64,000 nt of DNA from Polaribacter sp. (lineage in GTDB: Bacteria > Bacteroidota > Bacteroidia > Flavobacteriales > Flavobacteriaceae), in assembly GCA_029245785.1 (NCBI GenBank), contig JAQWOR010000021.1, forward strand, positions 86,932 to 150,931. The letters run 5' to 3'. The notes beneath the pieces are model-generated. The model saw only the letters and a list, made by a program, of their open reading frames with translations. It was not told the origin of the DNA and did not search any database. Positions 27,879-30,481 of this stretch are shown here, in pieces (positions within the stretch are counted from its first letter, which is position 1; the number at the start of each line of letters is the position of its first letter). The position numbers were made by a program, and so were the translations under genes.

Positions 27879-29558
27879 TTACGCGTCAGTTATGCATCCT
27901 TTTGACGCTGATGCAACCGTTTTTGCATATTTGTATAATATTCCTTTTTTGTGCTTCAATGCCGGAGCAACCCATTTCAATTTTCTTTCAGCAATTTCTG
28001 TATCAGAAAGCAAGACATTAATGGTATTGTCTTTTGCACTAATTCTAATGTTATCGCCTGTTTCTAAGATTGCTATTGTCCCTCCAGATTGTGCTTCTGG
28101 TGTAATATGTCCCACTACAAAACCGTGTGTTCCTCCAGAAAAACGTCCATCAGTTATCAATGCAACAGATTTTCCTAATCCTGCACCCATAATCAATGAA
28201 GTTGGCTTTAACATTTCTGGCATTCCTGGGCCTCCTTTTGGGCCTACATAACGAATTACAACTACATCTCCTCTACTAACTTCTCCGTTAGAAATTCCTG
28301 TATTTGCGGCTTGTTCTCCATCATAAACCACTGCTTTTCCTTCAAAAAGCAATCCTTCATTTCCACTAATTTTTGCCACTGCTCCTTCAGTAGCGAGGTT
28401 CCCGTATATGATTTGGATATTTCCTGAAGACTTTAATGCCTTATCCTTTGGATAAATAACATCTTGATCATCTTCAAAAGAAAGCGGTGCTACCTCAGCC
28501 AAATTTTCTGCCAATGTTTTTCCTGTAACGGTCATGCAATCGCCATGTAAATACCCATTATCTAATAGGTATTTCATTACGGCTGGAGTTCCTCCAACGC
28601 CATGAACATCTTCCATTAAGTATTTTCCGCTAGGTTTTAAATCAGCAATTAAAGGTGTTCTATCACTTACTTTTTGAAAGTCTTCTAAACTAAAATTAAT
28701 ATCAGCAGCATGTGCAATTGCTAAAAAGTGCAATACTGCATTTGTTGATCCTCCTAAAGCATTGACCAATGCAATGGCATTTTCTATTGATTTTTTAGAA
28801 ATAATATCTAAGGGTTTTAGATCTAATTCCATTAAGTTTTTAAGTGATATGGCTGTTCGTTCACTTTCTGATAATTTATTAGGGTTTTCAGCAGGAATTG
28901 AAGAGTTATATGGTAATGAAAATCCCATTGCTTCAATAGCAGATGCCATTGTATTTGCTGTATACATTCCGCCACAAGCTCCAGCTCCTGGAATTGCTCT
29001 TTTAATGATTTCTCTATATTCTACTTCATCAATTTCTCCGGCAACTTTTTGCCCTAAGGCTTCAAAAGCAGAAACAATGTTTAATTTTTTCCCTTTGTAA
29101 TTTCCAGAAGCAATTGTTCCTCCGTACATCATAATTGATGGACGGTTTAAACGCAACATGGCAATGACAGCTCCAGGCATGTTTTTATCACAACCAACTA
29201 CAGAGATTAATCCGTCATAACTCTGGGCATTCATTACCGTTTCTATAGAGTCGGCTATAATATCTCTAGAAGCTAACGAATAATTCATCCCAGAAGTTCC
29301 CATAGATATTCCATCACTAACTCCAATTGTATTAAAACCTAAGCCAACCAAACCAACAATATTACATTCGGTTTTTACTTCGGCAGCTAAGTTGTTTAAG
29401 TGCATATTACACGGGTTTCCATCGTAACCTGTACTAGCAATTCCTACTTGCCCTTTACTCATATCATCATCGGTCAAACCAACTGCATACAACATGGCCT
29501 GCGACGCTGGCTGAGATTGATCTTGGGTTAATCTACTACTGTGTTTATTTAATTTCAT
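27879..29558 (-). CDS. ilvD: dihydroxy-acid dehydratase
   Basis: [58 protein letters not shown]. Confidence 0.95.
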
Positions 29559-29763: not shown

Positions 29764-29800
29764 GCAAAAAAGAGCCTGTATCAATTTGATACAGGCTCTT
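29764..29800 (-). terminator. intrinsic terminator 2 of the ilv leader (attenuator)
   Basis: Minus strand AAGAGCCTGTATCAA-a-TTGATACAGGCTCTT followed by TTTTGCG; 15-bp perfect stem. Confidence 0.9.
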
Positions 29801-29825
29801 GCTTTATAGGCAATGATTAGCTGTA

Positions 29826-29882
29826 TCAACTCGATGATGAGCTAATAATGACTACAATAATTATGTTTTTTAAATAATTCAT
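29826..29882 (-). CDS. ilv leader peptide 2, MNYLKNIIIVVIISSSSS
   Basis: 18-codon ORF with IIIVVII run, upstream of terminator 2 and ilvD. Confidence 0.7.
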   Translation of the reverse strand: MNYLKNIIIVVIISSSSS

Positions 29883-29893
29883 TTTTTGTCCAT

Positions 29894-29924
29894 AAAAAAA
29901 GCCTTCCAAATTTGGAAGGCTTTT
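29894..29924 (-). terminator. intrinsic terminator 1 of the ilv leader (attenuator)
   Basis: Perfect palindrome GCCTTCCAAATTTGGAAGGC flanked by AAAA and TTTTTTT on the minus strand. Confidence 0.9.
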
Positions 29925-29955
29925 AGTTATATTTTAATTTTAATATACGCTTCCT

Positions 29956-30018
29956 TTATCCTTGCTTTTGAATAGCAATGACATGAATAGAAATGATATT
30001 AATTAATTGTGTGTTCAT
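29956..30018 (-). CDS. ilv leader peptide 1, MNTQLINIISIHVIAIQKQG
   Basis: 20-codon ORF with 6 Ile, 1 Leu and 1 Val, upstream of terminator 1. Confidence 0.7.
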   Translation of the reverse strand: MNTQLINIISIHVIAIQKQG

Positions 30019-30028
30019 AATGATGAAA

Positions 30029-30058
30029 CAAATATCTATTATTTTTTTGAGTTGGCAA
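30029..30058 (-). promoter_or_regulatory. candidate flavobacterial promoter of the ilv operon
   Basis: Minus strand TTG-N19-GATATTTG (7/8 match to TAnnTTTG), about 10 nt before the leader peptide 1 ATG. Confidence 0.5.
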
Positions 30059-30088: not shown

Positions 30089-30120
30089 AAAAAGCACCCA
30101 TTACAAAACGGGTGCTTTTT
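30089..30120 (-). terminator. ssb intrinsic terminator
   Basis: AAAAGCACCC-attacaaaac-GGGTGCTTTTT. Confidence 0.85.
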
Positions 30121-30142
30121 CTCTTTTCATAAAGCAACTTTT

Positions 30143-30481
30143 CTACTGCTTACTTCCCAACATTAACAACTCGCTACAAACAATTTCGGTAATGTATTTT
30201 TTCACGCCTTCTTTATCTTCATAAGACCTAGATGTTAGTTTGCCCTCAATAGCTACTTCGTTTCCTTTTTCAAGGTACTTTTCAATAATTTCAGCGGTTT
30301 TGTTCCATGCTATAACATTGTGCCATTGAGTGTCAGTTATTTTTTCGCCTTCGGCGTTTTTATAACTCTCGTTTGTGGCAATAGAAAATTTTGCCAATTT
30401 TTTACCCGAATCTAATGTAATAATTTCTGGGTTGTTTCCTAAATTTCCAATTAACTGTACTTTGTTTCTTAACGTACTCAT
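30143..30481 (-). CDS. ssb: single-stranded DNA-binding protein
   Basis: MSTLRNKVQLIGNLGNNPEI...WHNVIAWNKTAEIIEKYLEKGNEVAIEGKLTSRSYEDKEG. Confidence 0.93.
   Translation of the reverse strand: MSTLRNKVQLIGNLGNNPEIITLDSGKKLAKFSIATNESYKNAEGEKITDTQWHNVIAWNKTAEIIEKYLEKGNEVAIEGKLTSRSYEDKEGVKKYITEIVCSELLMLGSKQ

Follow-up and report, generated by a model that had tools for sequence, protein, structure and literature searches.

The window, a 64,000-nucleotide stretch from a genome assembly of 81 contigs, carries on its minus strand an ilv gene cluster in the order ilvD-ilvB-ilvN-ilvC-ilvA. The gene upstream of the leader is ssb, which has its own terminator at 30120-30088. From the ATG of a first leader ORF (ORF1) to ilvD there are 460 nt, and this interval contains two attenuator-like units, unit 1 upstream and unit 2 downstream (Table 1). 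A 33-nt near-perfect inverted repeat, TTGGCAAG...CTTGCCAA, at 30084-30052 overlaps the -33 element of the promoter assigned to unit 1. It was not seen in the closest relative and may serve as an additional terminator stem for ssb or as an operator.

Table 1. Features of the ilvD leader region and the basis on which each was assigned
Feature	Position	Strand	Basis or remarks
Predicted Bacteroidota-type promoter, TTG-N19-GATATTTG	30029..30058	-	Sequence; position conserved among 122 loci
Leader ORF1, MNTQLINIISIHVIAIQKQG	29956..30018	-	Sequence; 64/64 gap runs within the ORF alignment have lengths divisible by 3
P1 hairpin, TTGCT/AGCAA, in ORF1 3' end (putative pause hairpin)	29962..29978	-	Covarying pairs; synonymous recoding controls
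Antiterminator 1, GGAAG (29954-29950):CTTCC (29918-29914) plus inner A/U helix	29914..29954	-	Folding, conservation
Intrinsic terminator 1, AAAAGCCTTCCAAATTTGGAAGGCTTTTTTT	29894..29924	-	12-bp stem, 4-nt loop, U-run
Leader ORF2, MNYLKNIIIVVIISSSSS	29826..29882	-	Sequence, relatives' alignment
Unit 2 1:2 hairpin core, AGCTC/GAGTT (anti-antiterminator)	29828..29843	-	RNAalifold consensus, 18 sequences
Unit 2 region 2, GAGTTGATACAG (antiterminator 2 5' arm)	29821..29832	-	Near-invariant
Intrinsic terminator 2, GAGCCTGTATCAA/TTGATACAGGCTC plus U-run	29766..29798	-	RNAalifold consensus; sequence
ilvD	27879..29558	-	First gene of the cluster under predicted control; Pfam ILVD_EDD_N + ILV_EDD_C, ORF list

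ORF1 encodes a peptide of 20 residues that includes six Ile, one Val, and one Leu. An earlier reading of this DNA, made from the sequence only, had proposed this Ile-rich minus-strand ORF, a perfect terminator behind it, and a promoter-like motif about 10 nt before its ATG; its coordinates and sequences for these elements proved exact. That sequence-only reading had also staked its proposal on the conservation of ORF1, which the comparison of genomes bears out. Among the ilvD upstream regions from 90 loci of the same genus, most show unit 1, in a recurring pattern of an M.KQ.LNIISIIV-type peptide whose stop codon abuts GGAAG, followed by a CTTCC...GGAAG element and a U-run. Using a covariance model of unit 1 (R1), we found the unit in 88 of 116 same-genus genomes and in 79 of 301 sampled genomes of the family, representing 67 of 238 genera; the genomes compared are related, so these counts are not independent. 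The unit is linked to its presumptive target, as 69 of 70 family loci directly precede ilvD or ilvE-ilvD and the 70th lies at a contig end (NCBIfam identified the branched-chain aminotransferase gene, ilvE, before ilvD in one example). All 64 gap runs within the aligned ORF keep the reading frame, gaps after the stop codon are of any length, and in the NIIS core most of the codon variation falls at synonymous third positions. The in-frame gaps and synonymous variation together provide strong comparative evidence that ORF1 is translated.

Searches beyond the family yielded no convincing unit 1. At the order level, matches came from the same family only, and class-level R1 matches outside the family (L180-L182) were rejected, as they had neither an Ile-rich ORF nor ilvD. 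In the window itself, R1 also matched weakly across the end of ssb (about 30089-30205, E 0.005), and this was judged to be chance. One genome of the comparison (G023) has a second copy of ilvD (L090) with a leader of its own, MKNRNIIASILEIVIISHER, in which the antiterminator is compensated (GGATG/CATCC).

The -7 box of the promoter differs from TAnnTTTG by one mismatch and ends 10 nt upstream of the ORF1 ATG. A box with at most one mismatch lies within 25 nt of the ATG in 103 of 122 related loci, compared with 19-50 for control windows, and the box-to-ATG distance has a sharp peak at 8-10 nt. With the box at -12 to -5 relative to the start, a spacing taken from a published study (PMC9723704), transcription of unit 1 is predicted to begin about 3-6 nt before the ATG across loci, and near 30024 in the window. 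Shine-Dalgarno-like tetramers were found before ORF1 in only 1 of 55 loci and before ORF2 in none of 19. Since the predicted start adjoins the ATG and Shine-Dalgarno sequences are absent, unit 1 is probably read almost leaderless and unit 2 by way of internal initiation. Flavobacteriaceae largely do without Shine-Dalgarno initiation.

For unit 1, RNAalifold returned almost no structure on a plain MAFFT alignment, in which the variable linker length left the terminators out of register; the structure was therefore derived from an N-padded alignment. Terminator 1 has a folding energy of -17.2 kcal/mol, its segment scores z = -4.1 to -4.8, and none of 200 shuffles was equally stable. Its consensus contains eight pairs (98.7% paired), three of which show the two-sided changes of covariation.

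The competing antiterminator has an energy of -4.4 to -5.9 kcal/mol and forms in 58 of 59 same-genus loci when the 3' arm of the terminator is withheld. In a permutation test that drew on related sequences, the two arms of a locus paired more favourably with each other than did arms permuted across 126 loci (mean -6.90 versus -6.46, sd 0.10; matched in 0 of 200 permutations). Within the genus, the GGAAG/CTTCC pair is too invariant for covariation to be informative; inspection by eye suggests a comparable pairing in more distant relatives, GGAA-bulge-GG with CC-UUCC. The antiterminator thus appears, on comparative grounds, to be clearly kept and under selection, weak as it is in energy. The sequence-only reading had offered GGAAG/CTTCC as a weak candidate; the pairing is present and weak, but the inner A/U helix and the conservation had been overlooked. 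At -4.4 kcal/mol in the window against -17.2 kcal/mol for terminator 1, this antiterminator can work only kinetically.

A further hairpin, P1, which the same reading had missed, occupies the 3' end of ORF1. In relatives it takes the forms TCGTAA/TTACGA, TTGTGA/TCACAA, AGGTAA/TTACCT, and others, and it scores 11.8 against 8.4 for synonymous recodings (Wilcoxon 5e-19, with shared ancestry ignored). Its covariation count is inflated by our having located the hairpin in each sequence before counting pairs. P1 lies wholly within ORF1 and leaves GGAAG uncovered. It therefore does not qualify as a 1:2 anti-antiterminator, and its likeliest role is that of a pause hairpin. The position of the antiterminator arm relative to ORF1 is also consistent with control by a ribosome. 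The arm could be placed unambiguously in 92 of 122 loci, where its distance from the stop codon is -2 to +6 nt, so that it would be masked by a ribosome paused on that codon. A ribosome covers about 10 nt beyond its A site, and the last Ile or Val codon lies a median of 11 nt upstream of the arm, and 16 nt upstream of it in the window; stalling at that codon would therefore leave the arm free. Unit 1 thus combines three features expected of a leader-peptide attenuator: a conserved Ile/Val-rich ORF, an intrinsic terminator before the structural gene, and a mutually exclusive antiterminator that can be masked.

Unit 2 is built differently, and consensus folding points to a textbook 1:2/2:3/3:4 set of alternative structures. 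Its region 2 stays near-invariant while the end of the peptide and the stop codon shift; antiterminator 2, TTGATACAG/CTGTATCAA, has an energy of -13.1 kcal/mol and terminator 2 of -21.7 kcal/mol. The suggestion that the two units might differ in mechanism is thereby supported on structural grounds, in that the 1:2 hairpin of the classical four-segment (trp/ilv) type is present in unit 2 and missing from the seemingly near-leaderless unit 1. We dropped the idea that a Pro-Pro pair in unit 2 is important as peptide, as the window has Ser-Ser there.

Unit 2 occurs in 36 of the 116 same-genus genomes, and in all 36 of these unit 1 lies 9-24 nt upstream on the same strand, whereas 52 of the 116 have unit 1 alone, directly before ilvD. 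Across the family, unit 2 follows unit 1 at 21 of 70 loci (window included), two of which (L148 and L166) are 1-2-2 triples. In other Flavobacteriaceae genera (L183, L184, L190, L191, L194, and L199-L202), unit 2 precedes ilvD without a recognisable unit 1. The serial arrangement before ilvD proposed from the window is therefore retained in every unit-2-bearing genome of the genus and recurs in other genera. Because singles, pairs, and triples all occur and the order is fixed, the units appear to be independent modules stacked in a fixed order. By the same comparison, unit 1 is the commoner module of the genus and not an extra copy, with unit 2 a separate add-on. In L148 and L166, both copies of unit 2 carry an altered antiterminator/terminator sequence, CCTTTCTCA.

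The leader peptides of units 1 and 2 are nearly equal in composition, with 34.6% Ile and 13.2% Val versus 34.9% and 12.6%, and little Leu (122 leaders scored). With Ile at about 35% and Val at about 13% in both, the likeliest reading is that the two units respond serially to the same charged tRNAs. An unlikely alternative is that they sense different amino acids and form a two-signal gate like that of Salmonella mgtCBR. The two peptides do differ in sequence, and unit 2 has conserved Ser and Pro codons; however, the near-identical Ile/Val content speaks against separate signals, and these codons coincide with the 1:2 hairpin. Together with the Ser in place of Pro in the window, that coincidence suggests a constraint on the RNA and not on the peptide.

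It is also quite improbable, in our estimation, that only unit 2 controls ilvD, with unit 1 yielding an independent short transcript that functions in trans, as a small RNA or a terminated leader, and with another promoter, between the units or after unit 2, driving the operon. Such an arrangement would accord with the promoter and terminator that unit 1 has of its own, with the occurrence of unit 2 without unit 1 in some genera, and with a sigma-70-like match at 29748-29721. Yet the window contains no TTG-N19-TAnnTTTG between unit 1 and ilvD, only 9-24 nt separate the units in the 36 genomes, and where unit 1 stands alone before ilvD, in 52 of 116 genomes, it must act in cis. We give practically no credence to unit 1 being a decayed or chance Ile-rich ORF beside an ordinary terminator. 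Ile codons are common in AT-rich DNA, and when the intergenic region was shuffled by a Markov procedure, 2 of 1000 shuffles did contain two Ile/Val-rich mini-ORFs, but chance is refuted by conservation over 67 genera, the in-frame gaps, and the linkage to ilvD.

Unit 1 is thus very probably a ribosome-mediated leader-peptide transcription attenuator of the ilv operon that acts in series with unit 2, and the operon as a whole is probably under two same-signal switches. The ORFs, terminators, antiterminator pairing, ilvD linkage, and fixed order established by comparison suggest the following scheme for regulation by these leader attenuators, in which we infer the start site, the stalling of ribosomes, and any pausing at P1. 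Transcription would start about 6 nt before ORF1. With Ile- and Val-tRNA charged, a ribosome reaching the ORF1 stop would cover the adjacent GGAAG and block the antiterminator, and the CTTCC/GGAAG hairpin with its U-run would then cause termination. Were Ile or Val short, the ribosome would stall on the upstream Ile/Val codons and leave GGAAG free to pair with CTTCC, so that the polymerase would read on into unit 2. There the decision would be repeated through the classical 1:2/2:3/3:4 set, and only then would ilvD be transcribed. The two termination probabilities would multiply, which may give tighter repression and a wider range.

The region between the attenuators and ilvD has features of its own. 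At single-unit loci of the genus, the spacer of about 170 nt between terminator 1 and ilvD is near-constant in length and holds several conserved blocks, more than an ordinary untranslated segment would be expected to show. Between its final attenuator and ilvD, the window has a conserved 12-mer, TTGRAYATCATA, at 29748-29737 on the minus strand; in many loci (L093, L096, and L108, for example) it lies 15-25 nt past the last terminator, behind single as well as tandem leaders. With at most one mismatch, it is present at most ilvD-adjacent loci versus 3 of 160 shuffled sequences, and each genome has one or two copies of a longer form, mainly at ilv. IlvD itself is of two types in the genus, with about 90% and about 68% identity to the IlvD of the window. 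Tandem leaders mostly accompany the type with about 68% identity, and another gene often separates such a leader from ilvD; unlike many tandem loci, the window has no such intervening gene.

Proteobacteria, Firmicutes, and Actinobacteria supply the best-known cases of leader-peptide attenuation, and branched-chain amino acid (BCAA) operons under ilvL-type control include ilvGMEDA of E. coli. Corynebacterium ilvBNC likewise has a leader-peptide attenuator (PMC11857589). The leader described here resembles both in having a short ORF rich in codons for the end products, alternative pairings, and an intrinsic terminator before ilv genes. It differs from them in phylum and promoter type, in its two dissimilar serial units, in the absence of Shine-Dalgarno sequences, and in a unit 1 that is apparently almost leaderless and has no 1:2 anti-antiterminator. 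Tandem attenuators have been described in Salmonella mgtCBR, where the units mgtM and mgtP sense different signals, ATP and proline, a case its authors called singular (PMC3641672). Like mgtCBR, the ilv leader is predicted to hold two consecutive short ORFs with attenuators, but both are Ile/Val-rich and precede a biosynthetic operon. Within the same family, the main text of a study of Flavobacterium psychrophilum reports clues for leader-peptide attenuation before operons for amino acid biosynthesis and names pheA and hisG as genes preceded by conserved elements; that main text includes neither ilv nor tandem units (PMC9723704).

No Rfam family scored above its gathering threshold anywhere in the window, and T-box and metabolite riboswitch models gave no match there. 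Phe_leader (RF01859, 31.8 bits) and Thr_leader (RF00506, 28.0 bits) show a weak resemblance in the terminator region, below the gathering score of 55 that applies to each. Our search of the open-access literature returned no description of an ilv attenuator from Flavobacteria or Bacteroidetes. The mechanism we propose is thus a known one, leader-peptide attenuation, in an arrangement that appears previously undescribed as far as that literature shows.

Taken more broadly, Flavobacteriaceae may have a modular ilv leader in which two structurally different same-signal attenuators occur as singles, 1-2 pairs, and 1-2-2 triples, unit 1 being read near-leaderless and unit 2 through internal initiation that needs no Shine-Dalgarno sequence, and in which serial termination multiplies to give a wider or steeper response to Ile/Val-tRNA; for this model as a whole, we consider the balance to be even. 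The comparison points to attenuation as a widespread control of BCAA synthesis in the Flavobacteriaceae. The natural variation in unit number before this operon, from zero to three, makes it possible to test directly what purpose the stacking of same-signal switches serves, and also whether attenuation can operate from an ORF that is nearly leaderless.
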